32,994 nt of DNA from a virus. Position numbers and translations under genes: made by a program. Positions 3,587 to 17,951 of the stretch are shown here, in pieces (within the stretch, counting starts at the first letter, position 1; each line of letters starts with the position of its first letter). Where the stretch lies: positions 382-33,375 of the IMG/VR virus record IMGVR_UViG_3300030104_001840. The stretch is one strand, 5' to 3'. The notes below the pieces were generated by a model. The model was not told where the DNA came from. It was given only the letters and a program-made list of their open reading frames with translations, and made no database searches.

Positions 3587-4232
3587 TGTTATTTAGTTTA
3601 TTGGTGTAACATTTTAAATTGGGTATTGTATTTCTAAGGGTTGTTTTCCAGATTTTAATTGGCTTGTTAAAACCATTTTTCCATCCGTTGTCTTTCCAAG
3701 CATCATACTTTGATGTGATTTCAAACTTGGCTTTGTCGTCAAATAATAAATCTAGTTTTGAAAATACTATTGAAGCGTATTGTAAAAATTCTGAAATTTC
3801 TGGAATTTTACTTTTTACTTTTTTATTTACATCTTCATTTATATTTACATCTTCATTTACATTTACATTTACTAAAGGCATTGCCGTGGCATTGCCACTT
3901 TGTATGCCACTTTTATGCGATGGCATACTTTTTTGTTTATCCCATCTTTTTTTAGCATTCTCACTTTGTCGTTTAGAATGTTTAGCTCGTTTTTCTTTTT
4001 CTGTTTTTAATCTTTCGTTGTAATACCCATTTTCACTTTTAATGAACTTATCTAATACATCTGTGCTTATATTTCCATTAAATGTTAAGTGAATTAACTT
4101 TTCACTAATAGCACCTTTTTGATGTTGTAAACATAACAGGGTTATATACTGACCCCTTTCTTCCATAGTTAAGTCAGTGATGCCAGTTAAAAAATCCTTT
4201 GGGTAAAATAAAAATGCTGGGTCTTTAGCCAT
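3483..4232 (-). CDS. DUF1376-type replication initiation protein
   Basis: This protein has 249 residues. The N-terminus (AFLFYPKDFLTGITDLTMEERGQYITLLCLQ) is the DUF1376 winged-helix-like domain found in phage and prophage replication proteins of the lambda-O type. A basic KEKRAKHSKRQSENAKKRW segment follows, then an Asn/Val/Asp-rich linker (about residues 121-137, VNVNVNED...) and a C-terminal domain (about 140-249). In lambda-like phages the corresponding gene contains the replication origin; here an 18-bp tandem repeat codes the linker and could do the same. Its ATG overlaps the preceding stop by eight bases and its end overlaps the next gene by 104 bases. Confidence 0.7.
   Translation of the reverse strand: MAKDPAFLFYPKDFLTGITDLTMEERGQYITLLCLQHQKGAISEKLIHLTFNGNISTDVLDKFIKSENGYYNERLKTEKEKRAKHSKRQSENAKKRWDKQKSMPSHKSGIQSGNATAMPLVNVNVNEDVNINEDVNKKVKSKIPEISEFLQYASIVFSKLDLLFDDKAKFEITSKYDAWKDNGWKNGFNKPIKIWKTTLRNTIPNLKCYTNKLNNNGNKYDNTQNQTRYTDKFKEAILLNELQTSETNS
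3817..3872. repeat. 18-bp tandem repeat inside the replication gene (possible iterons)
   Basis: On the minus strand, GTAAATGTAAATGAAGAT and GTAAATATAAATGAAGAT follow each other, with degenerate GTAAAT units on both sides. They encode the linker VNVNED VNINED VNKKVK. Position between the N- and C-terminal domains of an initiator gene is where the lambda origin lies within gene O. The repeat may instead be only a low-complexity linker, which is common in such proteins. Confidence 0.45.
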
Positions 4233-5586: not shown

Positions 5587-5958
5587 TTATTTTTTAAATG
5601 TGTCAGCTTCTGAATCAGAAAATATTCCATATTCATAGGCGTTAATTAATTTTAGGGTGAGTCTGTCTTTAAGTCTTTTTTCAGCCATAGCAAAAGGGTA
5701 GGGAGCTTTACAATTATTTGGGGATACTTCACCTGTTGTCCAAGTAGTTGTTTCTCCCATTTTTGCACCACCTAACATTGCTACGTTTTTGTTATCGTCT
5801 CTAAAAACAGTGGGCGTTTCAAATTTTATATTTTCTTGATATGCTATTTTTTCACAGGCATCGTGGGTAATTATCCAAATGTCTTTTCCACCACGTTGTA
5901 AGTTCCAAAAGTCGCTTTCAGTAAGTTTATATTTAGTGGCTATTTCTTTAATTTTCAT
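5587..5958 (-). CDS. phage recombination-associated protein (possible single-strand annealing type)
   Basis: The 123-residue protein contains the segments IWIITHDACEKIA, TTGEVSPNNCK and YPFAMAEKRLKDRLTLKL, then EADTF near the end. The last block, 'AMAEKRxKDRxxLKL', is a recurring feature of phage proteins linked to recombination or replication, and some annealing proteins (Rad52/ERF-like) have comparable helices. I cannot prove an annealing fold from sequence alone. It lies next to an HTH gene and a coiled-coil protein in the early operon, and its start overlaps the HTH gene's stop (ATGA). Confidence 0.45.
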   Translation of the reverse strand: MKIKEIATKYKLTESDFWNLQRGGKDIWIITHDACEKIAYQENIKFETPTVFRDDNKNVAMLGGAKMGETTTWTTGEVSPNNCKAPYPFAMAEKRLKDRLTLKLINAYEYGIFSDSEADTFKK

Positions 5959-6173
5959 AGGTGTTTTTTTAATTCTGTTTGACTAATTCTATATTCATAG
6001 CCAATCATTTTATGTTTAATTTTTCCAGAGTGTAATCTGTTTAAAAGTGTTCTGTAATTAATTCGCATATACTTAGCAGCTTCGTGTGCAGTATACCACC
6101 TTTCAGTGCCAAGTATTTTATGCACTTCTTTCATTAATTCAGACAGTATTTTATTTTTATCTTTTCGTGTCAT
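5955..6173 (-). CDS. excisionase-like helix-turn-helix protein
   Basis: A 72-residue protein with a MerR/excisionase-type (HTH_17-like) domain at about residues 26-72: WYTAHEAAKYMRINYRTLLN followed by RLHSGKIKHKMIGYEYRISQTEL. The wing is 'KIKHKMIGYEYRIS'. Such proteins bind DNA as excisionase (directing the integrase toward excision) or as transcription regulators. Because a tyrosine integrase and arm-type repeats are present, an Xis role is attractive; the gene lies about 1.7 kb from the integrase, not next to it, so a regulator role is equally possible. The motif call is firm, the role is not. Confidence 0.7.
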   Translation of the reverse strand: MTRKDKNKILSELMKEVHKILGTERWYTAHEAAKYMRINYRTLLNRLHSGKIKHKMIGYEYRISQTELKKHL

Positions 6174-6737: not shown

Positions 6738-6947
6738 TTAGTGGGTTATTAATTGTTCTTGTTTTAAGTGGTTTTGTAAGTCGTCAACAACTATATTTTG
6801 ATATTTATCTGGTATTCTGCAAAAATTGCTGAACCAGTTACATTGAATAGATGTTGGACTTTTACCTAACTTTTCAGCTAGATGGATTATAAATCGTTTT
6901 TTGTCTTTTAACTTTTTATAATCACTTTGAATTTTGTTGTTATACAT
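6738..6947 (-). CDS. first gene of the leftward early operon, possible Cro-like DNA-binding protein
   Basis: This 69-residue protein sits directly opposite the repressor, where Cro lies in lambdoid phages. Its middle (FIIHLAEKLGKSPTSIQCNWFS) can be read as helix-turn-helix with the recognition helix near 'SPTSIQCNWF', followed by a short helical tail. No strong family match is evident, so the DNA-binding call is mainly contextual. A TATATTTG promoter box lies 23-30 bases before its start codon. If correct, it would compete with the repressor for operators in the spacer between them. Confidence 0.5.
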   Translation of the reverse strand: MYNNKIQSDYKKLKDKKRFIIHLAEKLGKSPTSIQCNWFSNFCRIPDKYQNIVVDDLQNHLKQEQLITH

Positions 6948-7132
6948 CTTTTATCTATTTAATTTTAAACAAATATATATTAAAATTATTAAAAATAAAA
7001 ATATTATTAAAAAAATAATTAAAAAAAGATAGATATGTGAATAAAATTGTTAGAAAAAAACAGTATAAAAATTAGATATTAAATAAATATTTAACGTATT
7101 TTGCTGAAAATCAAACACTAAACAAACAACAA
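6948..7132. promoter_or_regulatory. divergent regulatory region between repressor and early operon
   Basis: This 185-bp AT-rich spacer separates the two opposing transcripts. It contains repeated ATTATTAAAAA elements near 6986-7020, AAATA/TATTT inverted units near 7079-7093, and no open frame. A leftward -7 box (6970-6977) is clear. For the rightward repressor, TATTTTG at 7097-7103 is a weak match 30 bases before its ATG. Operators for the repressor should lie here. The exact sites cannot be picked by eye because the base composition is so biased. Confidence 0.55.
6970..6977 (-). promoter_or_regulatory. early leftward promoter, -7 box TATATTTG
   Basis: On the minus strand TATATTTG matches the Bacteroidota -7 consensus TAnnTTTG. 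The -33 region 20 bases upstream (7001-6998) reads TTTT, one off from TTTG. The initiation codon of the first early gene (6947) lies 22 bases beyond the box. This would drive the whole early operon leftward. Confidence 0.6.
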
Positions 7133-7666
7133 ATGAAACACCCATCTGAAAGGCTAGAGGAGTTGATTTATGCTTTAGGCCATAATCTAAATTCTTTTTC
7201 TATGGAATGTGGATATATAAACTCAACTACTATTTGGTCAATAATTGCTAAAAAGAAAAAACCAACTACCCCAACTTTAAATAAAATTTGCAAAGCATTT
7301 CCAAACGTAAACAGGCGCTGGATAATTTCAGGAAATGAATCAATGTTTATTAATAAGCCAATTCATAACAGCGAGGAATTAACTATTACAGCCAAGCAAG
7401 TGATTGATAAATTGCTTCCTATAATACCAAACCCAGAACTTATTGAGATAGCAACAAAAACAATGCAAGATTTTGTTGATAATTATAATCACGTAAAAGA
7501 ATTTGTACAAGATTTTGAAGCTACTTGGAAACATTCTTTAAATGAACTAGAAGAAGTAAAAAAAGATATTAAAAACATTAATGCCAAAATAACAACGATG
7601 CAACTTGTTACGGGTTATGAAGCAATTAAAAAAGAACAAAAAGAAAAAAATGGAAACGGGCACTAA
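7133..7666 (+). CDS. CI-like phage repressor (HTH plus coiled coil, no protease domain)
   Basis: This 177-residue protein is one of only two plus-strand genes. The N-terminus (RLEELIYALGHNLNSFSMECG ... TIWSIIAKKKKPTTPTLNKICKAFP, about residues 7-57) is a Cro/CI-type helix-turn-helix. The stretch NVNRRWIISGNESMF is typical just after this domain in Bacteroidota repressors. The remaining part is helical with a coiled coil (about 118-165). There is no LexA-like S24 peptidase domain with its Ala-Gly cleavage site, so induction would not be by RecA-stimulated self-cleavage. It should maintain lysogeny by repressing the early promoter. Confidence 0.75.
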   Translation: MKHPSERLEELIYALGHNLNSFSMECGYINSTTIWSIIAKKKKPTTPTLNKICKAFPNVNRRWIISGNESMFINKPIHNSEELTITAKQVIDKLLPIIPNPELIEIATKTMQDFVDNYNHVKEFVQDFEATWKHSLNELEEVKKDIKNINAKITTMQLVTGYEAIKKEQKEKNGNGH

Positions 7667-7751: not shown

Positions 7752-7901
7752 ATGAAAGATTTATATAAATATGGATTATACATTGATGAATGTGCCGACA
7801 CTTTAACAGGGGATGAATTAGCTTACCATTTGGAAAATTTAAAAAATATGTACTATAATGAATGTAAATCTAGCATTAAAATTCTTTCTAGGCAAATATA
7901 G
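7752..7901 (+). CDS. small acidic protein converging on the integrase gene (49 aa)
   Basis: This 49-residue frame starts at an ATG at 7752, 86 bases after the repressor stop. It reads KDLYKYGLYIDECADTLTGDELAY in its first half, with a helix-like second half and two Cys. I do not recognise it. It is codirectional with the repressor and its last 14 bases overlap the integrase 3' end from the opposite strand. Co-expression with the repressor in lysogens is plausible, for example as an immunity or anti-phage function, but this is inference only. The sequence looks coding rather than random, with Glu/Asp/Leu-rich helices. Confidence 0.45.
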   Translation: MKDLYKYGLYIDECADTLTGDELAYHLENLKNMYYNECKSSIKILSRQI

Positions 7902-9084
7902 AATTTACAAAACCTTCTAATAATTCAGCATTAAATTTTTTATACGTTTTTAAAGTTTTTACATCCTTTATTGCACATATATTCATTATGATATGGTCAG
8001 GCACACCGCTTTCAGCAGCTAAAGTTATAAATGTACGCCTAGCAGTATGAGAACCAACGCAATTGTAAAAAGGTTTTATGCTTTCAATCTTTTTATTTCC
8101 TAAATAAGTTATTTTGGTTACATCTTCCGTAAAACCAGCTAATTGACAAACCTTTTTTATATTCTGATTAAACTTTTGGTTACTTACTTTTGGCAAACGC
8201 CAACCCCATTTATTTAATAATATTTCTAATTTATTGCTAATTGGTATATATGCCTTTTGGTCTGTTTTTTCTTGTCTTTTTTCTATTCTATTATTAAATA
8301 CATCAGCTTTTTTAAACACAGAGTAATCGCTAAATCGTTGCCCTGAATAAATACCTATTAAAAATAAATCCCTGTACTTATCTAACGTTTTATTAAGTTC
8401 TAAATTTTCTAGTATTTTAACTTTTTCTTTAGTTAAATGTATATGGTCTGCTTCACGATTTACAACAGTTACTTTTTTATAACTATCATCTATATTTAAA
8501 CCCATTTCTAAACACCATTTTAAGAACGTTTTAAGGAAGCCAATTGTTCTTCCTAATGATATGTCCGTTAATTGATAATCACCCCTCAAAAACGCTATAA
8601 AATCAATCATAAATTCCTTGTTAACATCACTAACTTTCAATTTAGAATTATAAGCAATTAATTTATCTTTTAAATTTTTGTATTTATATATAGTTTTTTT
8701 GCTGTTTTTAGCTTGTTTTTCCTTGTTTTTAATAAAATATTGTAATTCATCAATTAATGTTTCTCTTTTTGTTTCTGTATTTTTAAAATAATTATCCAAC
8801 CTTTTTTTAAGTTCATACCTAGTTACTTTTAACCCCTCTAGCTCAATATCTCTAATAATTAAATGCAGTTGATTAACGTATTTATTTAATTGGTTGGTGA
8901 TTTGCTTTAATTCAAAACCAGCACCACCAGCTTTAACAATAGGCATACGGTTTTTTTTATTCCAATTTTTGCTTTCAATTGAAATTCCTGTAGAATAAAC
9001 AAATATTTTCTTCTCTGCTTTTAAATAATAGCGTATTCTTATAGCAGATTTTGTTTTGTTAGGTGTATCTAAAAAAAAGTACAT
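7888..9084 (-). CDS. int: tyrosine integrase
   Basis: This 398-residue protein has an N-terminal arm-binding region (1-50), a SAM-like core-binding domain (about 105-200) and a C-terminal catalytic domain. Visible active-site residues are Arg250 (YSGQRFSD), a likely Lys273, His346-x-x-Arg349 (GSHTARRTF) and the nucleophile Tyr381 (VKTLKTYKK). The usual His/Trp between the HxxR box and Tyr appears to be Ile372 (ICAIKD, where relatives have GHKD), an unusual substitution. It integrates the phage genome at attB; the adjacent attP carries a tRNA 3' end. Its start codon sits inside a direct repeat, suggesting self-regulation by integrase or Xis binding. Confidence 0.9.
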   Translation of the reverse strand: MYFFLDTPNKTKSAIRIRYYLKAEKKIFVYSTGISIESKNWNKKNRMPIVKAGGAGFELKQITNQLNKYVNQLHLIIRDIELEGLKVTRYELKKRLDNYFKNTETKRETLIDELQYFIKNKEKQAKNSKKTIYKYKNLKDKLIAYNSKLKVSDVNKEFMIDFIAFLRGDYQLTDISLGRTIGFLKTFLKWCLEMGLNIDDSYKKVTVVNREADHIHLTKEKVKILENLELNKTLDKYRDLFLIGIYSGQRFSDYSVFKKADVFNNRIEKRQEKTDQKAYIPISNKLEILLNKWGWRLPKVSNQKFNQNIKKVCQLAGFTEDVTKITYLGNKKIESIKPFYNCVGSHTARRTFITLAAESGVPDHIIMNICAIKDVKTLKTYKKFNAELLEGFVNSIFA

Positions 9085-9131: not shown

Positions 9132-9213
9132 AGTGTAAAATTTCTATAATATTAATGAAAATAATCTGTAAATAACAGTGAAAACTACACTAAGAGTGTA
9201 AAACAGTGTAAAA
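9132..9213. repeat. AGTGTAAAA repeats in the integrase-side attP arm
   Basis: AGTGTAAAA occurs at 9132-9140, 9195-9203 and 9205-9213, with a partial copy CAGTGAAAAC near 9176. All lie between the integrase start and the tRNA-like core. Such short repeats on one arm are characteristic of arm-type integrase sites. Function is inferred from position. Confidence 0.5.
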
Positions 9214-9215
9214 AA

Positions 9216-9240
9216 GTTCAAGTCCCGTCCGGTCCGCAAC
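9216..9240 (+). other. attP: attP core matching a tRNA 3' end
   Basis: The sequence from 9216 begins GTTCAAGTCCC and continues to GTCCGCAAC. This reads as T-loop TTCAAGT, 3' T-stem CCCGT, acceptor strand CCGGTCC and discriminator G. The 5' half of the tRNA is absent, since the bases before TTCAAGT are A-rich and cannot pair. This is the usual result when a phage integrates into the 3' end of a tRNA gene and restores it. GC content is far above the surrounding sequence, which supports a host-derived segment. Confidence 0.75.
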
Positions 9241-9244
9241 CTTT

Positions 9245-9288
9245 AGCTATAACTATTTAATTTCTAGATAGTTATAGCTTTTTTATTT
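9245..9288 (+). terminator. intrinsic terminator directly after the tRNA-like core
   Basis: AGCTATAACTAT (9245-9256) and ATAGTTATAGCT (9268-9279) form a perfect 12-bp stem with an 11-base loop, followed by TTTTT and a further TTTT. Polarity is rightward. After integration it would end transcripts of the restored tRNA gene and keep them from running antisense into the phage late operon. Confidence 0.8.
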
Positions 9289-9344
9289 TGATTCCGTACA
9301 CTATACAGTACAGTTTTGCATTTTTCTATATAAAAAAAGCGGGG

Positions 9345-9412
9345 CAGTTGCGGGGCAGTTGTGGGGCAATTGACTACAGTTGCTTACAGTTGCTAACAGT
9401 TGCTAACAGTTG
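9345..9412. repeat. seven CAGTTG elements phased at 10-11 bp
   Basis: CAGTTG starts at 9345, 9356, 9377, 9387, 9397 and 9407, with CAATTG at 9367. Spacings are 11, 11, 10, 10, 10 and 10 bp, one DNA turn each, so all sites face the same side of the helix. The first three spacers are GGGG-rich and the later ones are CTTA or CTAA. ATATAAAAAAA stretches flank the array on both sides. It lies in the attP arm opposite the integrase and may bind Int, Xis or an accessory protein as a row; a replication iteron role is also possible. Confidence 0.7.
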
Positions 9413-9510
9413 CTTCCATATAAAAAAAACTGGGACAAAACGGGGATGTGCAGGGATGTTTAATTGTATAGGCAAAAAAAATTACATTTTTAGGTAGCAA
9501 AAAGTAGCAA

Positions 9511-10266
9511 CTATAAATCCATCATACAATTAATAGCAGTTTTACCGCCAATTATAACAGCACAACCAACTGCTGGTTTTTTTCCAGATTTAGCATAAGC
9601 CATAGCATAAGAACTAAAGTCAATTCCGCAGCCAACCTGAGTTCCAAAAATTTTAAAACGTCTTCCAACTGTGTATTCTGTGTAAGCCTGTGTATGTAAA
9701 TGCCCTTGTACTGTGCTTTGCATATCTGCTTTAGATTTAGTTCTAGCAGTTCCAGCTTCTCCGTGAATGTATTGTACATTATCATATTCAATACGTTCTA
9801 TAAAACGCCAATTAGGAACTTCCAAAACATCTTTGTAGGCTTTTATCCATTTAGTAGGTATTGATGAAGTTTGTGCTTTACGCATAATCATTCTATCGTG
9901 GTTACCAATTATTACGTCTGCTTTTGGAAAAGATTTATAATACCTTTTTAATCTATTTATAGCTAAATCTAATTCATCAGCCCCACCCATTCCATCAGCA
10001 TCTGTTTCGTGGTAGCTACTGTAATGGTTATCTATGACATCTCCTATAAAAATTACTTGGTTACAATTCCATTTTTGGTAAGTATCTACGCAATGTTGGT
10101 GGTATTCGTCTAAGTCAAAGGGGGTATGTAAATCTCCAATAACTAAAATACGCCTTTCAGTAGGTTTTTTATTTTCCCTATAATTATAAATTAATTCGTA
10201 TTCTTCTTCATTCAGCCTAACCTTTGGGTTTCCTGAATCTGAATACCTTTCTTGAAATGATTTCAT
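9511..10266 (-). CDS. calcineurin-like metallophosphoesterase
   Basis: This 251-residue enzyme has the full set of two-metal motifs: GDLH (44-47), GDVID (75-79), GNHD (121-124), His168 and GHLH (188-191). It should hydrolyse phosphomono- or diesters, possibly nucleic acid ends or cyclic nucleotides. It is the last gene of the late operon, directly after the holin-like gene (ATGA overlap). Some phages carry such phosphoesterases for DNA processing or to degrade host signalling nucleotides; the substrate cannot be read here. No signal peptide is seen, so it probably works in the cytoplasm. Confidence 0.85.
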   Translation of the reverse strand: MKSFQERYSDSGNPKVRLNEEEYELIYNYRENKKPTERRILVIGDLHTPFDLDEYHQHCVDTYQKWNCNQVIFIGDVIDNHYSSYHETDADGMGGADELDLAINRLKRYYKSFPKADVIIGNHDRMIMRKAQTSSIPTKWIKAYKDVLEVPNWRFIERIEYDNVQYIHGEAGTARTKSKADMQSTVQGHLHTQAYTEYTVGRRFKIFGTQVGCGIDFSSYAMAYAKSGKKPAVGCAVIIGGKTAINCMMDL

Positions 10267-15829: not shown

Positions 15830-17605
15830 TTATTTTTTCTTTTTTGGTCTTGGGTTTTTATAACCCCTATTTGGCATTTTAAATGGCGCAGTTGAAACTA
15901 ATTTATCGTTTGTTTCATATCTAGCAGCATTTCTTTCTCCATCTTTTATAGGTAAAGCAGTAATCATTCTACGAGCTTGACCAACACTAATTTTTTTATT
16001 GTTTTTTCTTAAATAAATATTACGAACCCAAGTATGGTGACAATTAGCACCGCCTTTGTATAGCCATATATTGTACTTACTTTCTCCTTTAGGTGCTAAC
16101 TCTGTATTAGCAGCACTTTGTTTGTCTAAATCTTCTTTACGATAAACCTTATTTGCTTTTATCATTTTCTCGCAAAATCGTCTGCTATTTTCGCCAGTTA
16201 CAGGTGGGTAATATTTATATCTAATTTTAAACAGTGAAGTATCTTGTTCACTAACTTTTTTTGGTGTTGATTTAACTACTGTTGACCTTGTAGCCATAGC
16301 AAATTTAAAATGGCTTAATATATTGTCTTCATCGTCTGTTGCTTCTTGACTGTGTAATAGCTCATATTCTTGCATTTCTTCATCTTCGCCTAAAGCAATT
16401 AAATCATCAGCTAACTTGTCTAATTCTTCATCTGAAACATCGTGAAAACAAACTTTATTTAATTCAGTTTCTTCTTCCTTAACTCCAGTTTCTTCTTCTT
16501 TTACTTCTTCATTTTCGATGTCGTCAACATCAATATCCATAAAGTGTAATGGGTCTAATGTTTTAAAATAAAGGTTTAATGCTATGTTATTTGTGCTTAA
16601 TATCTCGTCTAAGCAACTTATAATTAAATCCTGATAAGGTTTTATAGTTGTATTGCTAAAAAGTCTTTGAGCGTTCTGTATTTCTTCTGCATTACTTCCT
16701 AAACCACTATTGCCATCACGCAACCCAATTAATAAAGGCGAAGTAATACGATGCGTTAGCATAATTTTTCTGGAACATTCTTCACTTAAGTAACTATAAT
16801 GCTCAGGAGCGTTGTTTAAAGGTATGTCATCAACTGTAGTTTTTTGTTCTGCATTATGGTTAAAAGCAATTATGACTTTTTCACCAAATCCACCAGTTAA
16901 TTTGCCCATTACTTGGTTTTTGATTTCGTGCTGTTTTTCGGATGATGGAATACCACTGTTGAAATTGATAACCTTAGTTCCTGAAAAAGAATTTTGGGCA
17001 TCGTTTATTAAATAGTCAGCTATTTCGGATTCCAGTTTGGGATAAGCCAAACAATAGTCGGCTGGACTGTAATAGTAATAACCAGTTACATATCTTTTTA
17101 TAACGTATATTTCGTTTTTAGCACCACTACCATAAACAGGTATCTTTTTTAGTTCTGTGTTTTGGGTTACTTTAGTCCAATCAGCAGAATAATAATAGTT
17201 TTTTATCTCACCCTTATTATCCATTTTTTCAGCACGTAAAGTTTCTCTAGGAAAATGTGAAATATTACTGATTTTTTTACCTGTATAACTAATTTGCAAT
17301 GATGCTTCACCCAACATTTTTAAATCCAAACAAATTTTACGCATACAACTGTCTTTAAGCAGTTCTTTCATTTGTGCAAATTGTTCGGGTTTTTCGTTAC
17401 TGTCTGTTGCTTCTAATCCTCTACCAAATATTTGTTGAGATATACCATTTATAACACTTTGATTCGTTGTGCTATTCATATAGCTGTCAATCAGTTCTTG
17501 GTAATACCCATTATCATCACCAATGCCTACCCAATCCCTGTTTTTATCTTCAGTTATTAAAGGTGCTTCGTATTGATTTAATTGTATTAAATGTAAATTA
17601 TCCAC
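15830..17605 (-). CDS. portal protein with MuF-like C-terminal domain
   Basis: This 591-residue protein combines a portal-like body with a C-terminal extension. The body includes WVGIGDDNGYYQELIDSY, SVINGISQQIFGRGL, a conserved 'LGEASLQISY', and SPLLIGLRDGNSGLGSNAEE. The extension includes YKYYPPVTGENSRRFCEKMI, KSKYNIWLYKGGANCHHTWVRN and a very basic tail. The CHHTW region resembles MuF-type head morphogenesis domains fused to portals. Between them is an acidic linker (about 365-430). I chose a GTG start at 17605, where GTGGATAA overlaps the previous stop. A farther ATG at 17653 would overlap 56 bases and add a hydrophobic leader that portals lack. Confidence 0.75.
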   Translation of the reverse strand: MDNLHLIQLNQYEAPLITEDKNRDWVGIGDDNGYYQELIDSYMNSTTNQSVINGISQQIFGRGLEATDSNEKPEQFAQMKELLKDSCMRKICLDLKMLGEASLQISYTGKKISNISHFPRETLRAEKMDNKGEIKNYYYSADWTKVTQNTELKKIPVYGSGAKNEIYVIKRYVTGYYYYSPADYCLAYPKLESEIADYLINDAQNSFSGTKVINFNSGIPSSEKQHEIKNQVMGKLTGGFGEKVIIAFNHNAEQKTTVDDIPLNNAPEHYSYLSEECSRKIMLTHRITSPLLIGLRDGNSGLGSNAEEIQNAQRLFSNTTIKPYQDLIISCLDEILSTNNIALNLYFKTLDPLHFMDIDVDDIENEEVKEEETGVKEEETELNKVCFHDVSDEELDKLADDLIALGEDEEMQEYELLHSQEATDDEDNILSHFKFAMATRSTVVKSTPKKVSEQDTSLFKIRYKYYPPVTGENSRRFCEKMIKANKVYRKEDLDKQSAANTELAPKGESKYNIWLYKGGANCHHTWVRNIYLRKNNKKISVGQARRMITALPIKDGERNAARYETNDKLVSTAPFKMPNRGYKNPRPKKKK

Positions 17606-17951
17606 TATAATATAAATATTCGTTAGCACCAGTATTATGCTCTGTATAAACATTGTTTGTTATTACATAGCTACTGGCATTTTGGTTAGTACAAAAAATC
17701 TTGTCTTTAAAAATGATGGTATTGTCAGTTGTGTTTTTAATTTCTAAGTTGTAAAAGCTATCAGAAACTAAATTTTGACTTGTTGCATAAGTAGAGTAGT
17801 AGTCATTGCTTCCAAAAGTTGGTGTACTGTCAGTTAAAATGACTTTATTTTTATTTTCTGATATTAAAGTAAGCTGATAATTTTTAGTAGCTACAATATC
17901 TTCTCTAGCTATAAAATTAATTGTTCCACCTGTTGTACTCAATACTTGCAT
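17598..17951 (-). CDS. hypothetical virion-associated protein (117 aa)
   Basis: A mainly beta protein rich in Thr, Asn and Ser (STTGGTINFIAREDIV, YQLTLISENKNKVILTDSTP), of a type common near portal and tail tube genes in Bacteroidota phages. I cannot name it. Its start codon lies only 13 bases beyond the T-run of an intrinsic terminator, so its expression must depend on readthrough. It overlaps the portal gene by eight bases. Confidence 0.55.
   Translation of the reverse strand: MQVLSTTGGTINFIAREDIVATKNYQLTLISENKNKVILTDSTPTFGSNDYYSTYATSQNLVSDSFYNLEIKNTTDNTIIFKDKIFCTNQNASSYVITNNVYTEHNTGANEYLYYSG

Follow-up and report, generated by a model that had tools for sequence, protein, structure and literature searches.

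A helically phased seven-element repeat array in an optional block beside the attachment site of a bacterial virus

In a virus that infects bacteria (IMG/VR record IMGVR_UViG_3300030104_001840, 33,375 bases), we analyzed a stretch of 32,994 nucleotides, positions 382 to 33,375 of the record, hereafter called the window and numbered from its own first letter. Seven copies of the element CARTTG, spaced 10 or 11 bp apart, form a non-random and helically phased array close to the phage attachment region. Sequence comparison with the closest relative, which has no such block, identifies the array as an optional add-on rather than as core attP machinery. As a tentative best explanation, we propose that it is an optional operator array for a winged-HTH protein binding head to tail, and that it was partly enlarged by slippage. 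The features of the block are as follows.

9321–9511, no strand assigned: optional block of about 191 bp carrying the two arrays; the L001/G001 phage lacks precisely this stretch
9345–9412, plus strand: seven CARTTG elements, spacings 11, 11, 10, 10, 10 and 10 bp
9340–9371, plus strand: first sub-array, three 11-bp units (C/T)GGGGCARTTG, G tracts at 9341, 9352 and 9363
9375–9415, plus strand: second sub-array, four 10-bp units TACAGTTGCT, near-perfect copies, slippage-like
9430–9455, plus strand: second phased array (W2), CTGGGACAAAA/CGGGGATGTG/CAGGG, spacings 11 and 10 bp

The seven elements start at 9345, 9356, 9367 (CAATTG), 9377, 9387, 9397 and 9407. Relative to 10.5 bp per turn, their offsets are 0, +0.5, +1, +0.5, 0, -0.5 and -1 bp, and all seven lie on one face of the DNA, within 34 degrees (one bp) over 62 bp. 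The original prediction of seven CAGTTG or CAATTG copies at 11 or 10 bp, all facing one side of the DNA, is thus confirmed at exact positions, and the division into two sub-arrays that it suggested fits the output of TRF, which splits the array into 9339–9372 (period 11, 3.1 copies, GCGGGGCAGTT) and 9375–9415 (period 10, 4.1 copies, TACAGTTGCT), with 91% and 93% matches, respectively, among whole units. When any 6-mer was considered, with one transition-degenerate column permitted and a spacing of 9–12 bp, the longest chain was seven in the window versus two or three in all 200 dinucleotide shuffles. With exact 6-mers only, the longest chain in the window was four and the shuffles did not exceed three, a length reached by 23 of the 200. 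Taking at least three short direct repeats one helical turn apart as a mark of an excisionase-type operator array, seven at 10–11 bp are present here. W2 (CTGGG/CGGGG/CAGGG), which the original prediction did not name, comes after the seven-element array. The sole listed open reading frame over the array, a 69-aa TTG-start frame on the plus strand (9288–9497), was judged spurious, and a coding role was rejected.

The attachment region beside the block contains the following features.

7888–9084, minus strand: tyrosine integrase, 398 aa
9083–9106, plus strand: putative left integrase arm-type pair, two copies of ATTCCGTACAGT at 12-bp spacing
9216–9238, plus strand: attP core, resembling the 3' tail of a tRNA gene
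9245–9289, plus strand: terminator-like hairpin downstream of the tRNA tail (9245–9279 plus a T tail)
9291–9314, plus strand: putative right integrase arm-type pair, ATTCCGTACACT/ATACAGTACAGT, 12-bp spacing
9511–10266, minus strand: metallophosphoesterase, the stop of which is the far edge of the gap

Along the plus strand the order is integrase gene, left pair, a spacer of about 110 bp, tRNA-like tail, hairpin, right pair, array block and metallophosphoesterase stop. Six integrase relatives came from a first scan of the viral collection, and further ones were obtained through the phosphoesterase and by alignment. The DNA upstream of these integrases carries a direct-repeat pair at the integrase start, which is repeated beyond the core. 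When spacings of 9–14 bp were searched, 12 bp was the best in 46 of 47 attP regions (the window plus 46 loci), L111 being the failure and L119 fitting 12 bp by one point only. The 46 loci (14, plus 31 of 68, plus 1 of 18) were picked after reading, contain several near-duplicates (e.g. L107 and L108), and omit prophage loci, in which the opposite end may carry the right arm. The arm motif varies among phages (ATTCCGTACAG, ATTCGGTAAAG, ATTGTGTACAG, ATAGGGAATCA, GTGGGTCG, etc.), and within a phage the left motif agrees with the right. The 12-bp pairs are therefore named here as probable arm-type sites of the integrase. Their strict spacing shows that the expectation of irregular arm sites was wrong for this phage family. 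The array itself had been placed within attP; it is situated outside the conserved attP, starting about 30 bp past the right arm pair.

The cores of several relatives are like the 3' tail of the tRNA-Ser(gga) gene in L157. The exact attachment tail of the window was found in none of 8, 299 and 26 host genomes searched, and that of the relatives in none of 26. Reading by eye reveals a further set of repeats beside the core at 9195–9217, at intervals of about 10 bp, with a palindrome-like partner further left. Such inner repeats, likewise read by eye in relatives, are GTGTAAAA in the window, L098 and L102, AGGAAA in L015 and CGGAAA in L096, with L014 carrying them too.

The window runs collinear with L001 (record G001), its closest relative, at approximately 90–96% identity over most long aligned stretches and 76–87% over some; the L001 integrase is 94% identical and the phosphoesterase 98%. 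The alignment breaks exactly at 9320/9512, and the 191-bp block is missing. No pair of CARTTG elements at 10–11 bp occurs anywhere in the 31.6-kb G001 record. The other attP parts and the excisionase-like gene are all present there without the array. Because the closest relative does without the block, phages of this type do not require the array for their attP architecture. The original prediction held that absence of the array from a close relative with working integration would count against it, and at the sequence level G001, which presumably integrates, is such a relative. More generally, the next gene ends at most 40 bp from the right pair in 29 of 44 regions, a count that omits L111 and L119 and to which L115 contributed no open reading frame.

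Additional arm-type sites for the integrase of this phage would be one explanation of the array. TACAGTT, with which the true arms end, is found again in two 10-bp units of the array, and occurs 11 times in all on the plus strand of the window. Like the array, the arm-type sites of this family are short direct repeats near attP; unlike it, they are pairs at exactly 12 bp, lie on both sides and have another motif, and the 12-bp rule of 46 of 47 regions stands against the 10–11 bp of the array. When each phage's own arm profile was scored in its gap against shuffles, the window (p 0.32), L003 (0.84), L017 (0.70) and L096 (0.78) were unremarkable, and only the L100 gap scored above shuffles (p 0.03). 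Furthermore, the array is absent from L001 despite near-identical arms and identical integrase residues 1–35. We therefore consider extra arm sites very improbable, and rejected this identity by spacing, motif and absence in L001.

Among the loci compared, relatives of the block were found in L003 (84% over 44 bp, left part of the block), L017 (79% over 67 bp, reversed with respect to attP) and L100 (83% over 59 bp). All three have G-rich direct repeats at 10–11 bp in the same gap, with spacings of 11-10 or 11-11. The L003 array, CGGAACTAATT/CGGGGTATAAA/CGGGG (CGG/CGGGG/CGGGG), occupies the same position as the first sub-array of the window, and the window G tracts at 9341, 9352 and 9363 align with its cores. 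Since the phased part of the homologous stretch in L003 is C-GG/C-GGGG, it may be the G tract, rather than CAGTTG, that sets the register typical of the family. L100 and L017 have three arrays each by reading, including relatives of W2 (same orientation in L100, inverted in L017). In L096 and L102, an array CGGAACTAAAA/AGGGGTAAAAA/CGGG in the same gap immediately precedes an inserted HTH gene of 89 aa (1992–2261 in L096) that has matches to PHROG excisionases; L098, with the same next gene by eye, has neither this gene nor the array. A test of G phase gave p 0.003–0.007 for the gaps of L003, L017, L100, L096 and L102, and p 0.10 for the whole gap of the window (0.056 for W2 alone). When five array pairs were aligned, differences were seen at 0 of 40 GGG/GG-core positions versus 24 of 112 other positions; the Fisher p of 3e-4 is indicative only, as the cores were picked with the arrays in view and the pairs share members.

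Pattern searches matched W2 in the L017 and L100 records only (the window's own record possibly not being in that search) and the first sub-array in the L003 record only; CGGAACTAANNNGGGGTANAAANGGG was absent from 397 Flavobacteriaceae genomes. The block had no match in the annotated phage collection, and one match among plasmids (37 bases, E 0.6, Paenibacillus) is at chance level. A supposed conserved gene start (MAKKG..) in L017 and L100 was discarded: the exact string occurs in those two records only, and no gene was found. The gap of L017 beside attP also contains a further tandem repeat, four 7-bp copies of AAACTGC at 4046–4073.

The main and serious rival to an operator array is a functionless minisatellite, that is, tandem copies made by replication slippage in an intergenic spacer and tolerated since nothing there matters. 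We regard this as doubtful, and yet as a real possibility. The units are near-identical over their whole length, beyond the core, and the array is absent from the closest relative. Three CAGTTG copies at 10–11 bp occur in 82 viral stretches of varied composition, often in open frames (25–40 flanking bases read), so that such satellites are common. However, single-unit slippage gives a constant period, and here the period shifts from 11 to 10 bp in such a way that none of the seven elements leaves the one-bp arc; two separate slippage expansions, giving two periods, are possible. The sister arrays in the same gap, moreover, hold cores and phase while their spacers diverge.

Returning to the operator reading, the candidate binder and the neighboring regulator are encoded as follows.

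5955–6173, minus strand: HTH_17 excisionase-like protein, 72 aa, candidate binder
7133–7666, plus strand: repressor-like transcriptional regulator

The 72-aa protein belongs to PF12728, and its matches to PHROG excisionases are weak. Its AlphaFold model has a mean pLDDT of 79, and about 90 for residues 31–70. The best PDB matches of the model include BldC, NmlR, RdfS, Pukovnik Xis and Tn916 Xis, with weak Foldseek E values (best 7.5e-3); by sequence, BldC is again the best PDB match (E 0.045). The phage is thus predicted to encode a winged-HTH, excisionase-like protein of the RDF type. An HTH_17 relative is present in 10 of the 11 relative records searched, six of those ten having no array in the gap, and G001 keeps the protein at 85–86% identity without the array. 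Array and RDF are thus not kept together in close relatives, as would be expected of an essential pair, although this is not strictly defining. In 41 Flavobacteriaceae genomes, 3 of 28 HTH_17 loci had upstream arrays at p<0.05 versus 0 of 28 downstream controls (2 of 30 loci were dropped, being too short to be centered), and upstream arrays as a general rule for HTH_17 genes are unsupported by these numbers. In one host genome (G051), an HTH_17 gene at locus L277 (1477–1758), beside integrase-like frames, is preceded by AAAGGGGAATT repeats spaced 11 bp apart.

Several known proteins offer precedents. According to PMC7498355, Apl of coliphage 186 recognizes six-bp operators arranged as direct repeats at 10–11 bp, five at attP and seven at pR-pL, and its binding is detected only from three operators up. 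The array described here likewise consists of six-bp direct repeats at 10–11 bp. In contrast to 186, no second array was found in the early region (6948–7132), where the Apl model predicts one, so that the early promoters lack a counterpart; the present array, a putative operator, is optional and lies outside the arm pair. RdfS, Pukovnik Xis and P2 Cox are described in PMC11963761 as excisionases that form filaments by head-to-tail binding near attP, and a matching winged-HTH fold is predicted for the HTH_17 protein. RdfS sites are presented there as lacking a clear consensus motif, whereas the array is highly repetitive, and the likeness in our case is one of sequence and predicted fold. BldC, the best structural match of the HTH_17 model, protects four tracts one helical turn apart with a variable repeat number, according to PMC5859096, and this spacing corresponds to that of the array. 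BldC differs in being a Streptomyces developmental regulator, the consensus repeat of which has, in the same paper, an AT-rich part.

Because proteins of the Apl, RdfS and BldC kind bind direct repeats one turn apart, they are the closest known kind, and an excisionase-type operator is the reading that we prefer. In this reading, the array, which lies in its optional block past the right arm pair and before the next gene, would act as an operator. Its binder would be a small winged-HTH protein akin to Xis, Apl and BldC; the HTH_17 product of the phage itself is the simplest candidate, and a sister protein such as that beside the L096 array is an alternative. Monomers bound head to tail, one per turn, could assemble cooperatively into a filament next to the P' arm, bending the DNA there or covering it, and may thereby tune excision, or transcription from the late genes into attP. 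The second sub-array has the look of a later addition, as if slippage had recently enlarged an older array of three elements. The idea of a filament or excisionase-type protein in the original prediction accordingly survives in part: the repeats of 186 Apl and the predicted HTH_17 fold speak for it, and the absence of the array from the closest relative speaks against it. Our confidence is limited because G001 keeps HTH_17 without the array, the second early array is absent, HTH_17 genes are generally without arrays, the block has no counterpart in the annotated phages searched, and similar repeats arise elsewhere, as in the 82 viral stretches.

The array might instead serve another regulator as an operator or transcript-level element, for example by insulating int and attP from late transcription; transcripts of the phosphoesterase operon would then extend over the gap as their 3' region. 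Terminator-like hairpins seen by eye in the long gaps of L016, L017 and L100 favor this, as does the repressor, which is among the more diverged proteins between the window and G001, so that regulator sites may differ as well. However, a scan found no terminator-like site in the block, promoter-like sites were not above the shuffle level, and no Rfam model reached its gathering score in the window, L003, L017, L100 or L096. We consider this explanation unlikely. The repressor-like protein is 63% identical between the two phages and an early gene (6738–6947) 38%, both far more diverged than most neighbors; together they are possibly an immunity-type exchange region, to judge from the comparison.

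A bolder form of the operator proposal, which we likewise hold to be improbable, makes a plug-in site of the gap next to the P' arm. Short phased-array control cassettes would be swapped there among related phages, in either orientation and with or without their own small winged-HTH gene, so that excision or attP transcription gains a new regulator or the excisionase of a competitor is titrated, the integrase and its arms being left untouched. If true, attP here would combine a fixed part, made up of the core and the two arm pairs at 12 bp, with a control part open to exchange, and would show how phages quickly rewire the control of excision.

The arm sites themselves change together with the head of the integrase. 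For 36 of the 47 integrases (near-duplicates and unsure starts were omitted, and one was lost to a length filter), the similarity of arm sites correlated with identity over residues 1–35 (Spearman 0.41; Mantel-type p 0.0005). The correlation was 0.36 after removing the rest of the protein, and that with the rest was -0.05 once the head was accounted for. L003 and L102 have identical left-arm strings, with 89% identity in the head and 68% in the remainder; for L002 and L005, whose arms differ, the remainder is 98% identical and the head 69%. On the far side of the core, at a distance of about 200 bp, the right pair varies along with the left, and for this reason the head and both arm pairs would appear to be exchanged or selected together. 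The pattern (L001–L006, L096–L146 and others) resembles a modular exchange in which the arm-binding head travels with the two arm pairs. No paper on a joint change of integrase head and arm sites was found in the literature searched, the coverage of which was incomplete. Such a natural series of heads and arms makes the recognition code of arm-binding domains testable. By eye, L102 pairs L096-type arms with L098-type inner repeats. Elsewhere in the window, an imperfect 21-bp tandem repeat is located at 16463–16516, within a large open reading frame (15830–17653).
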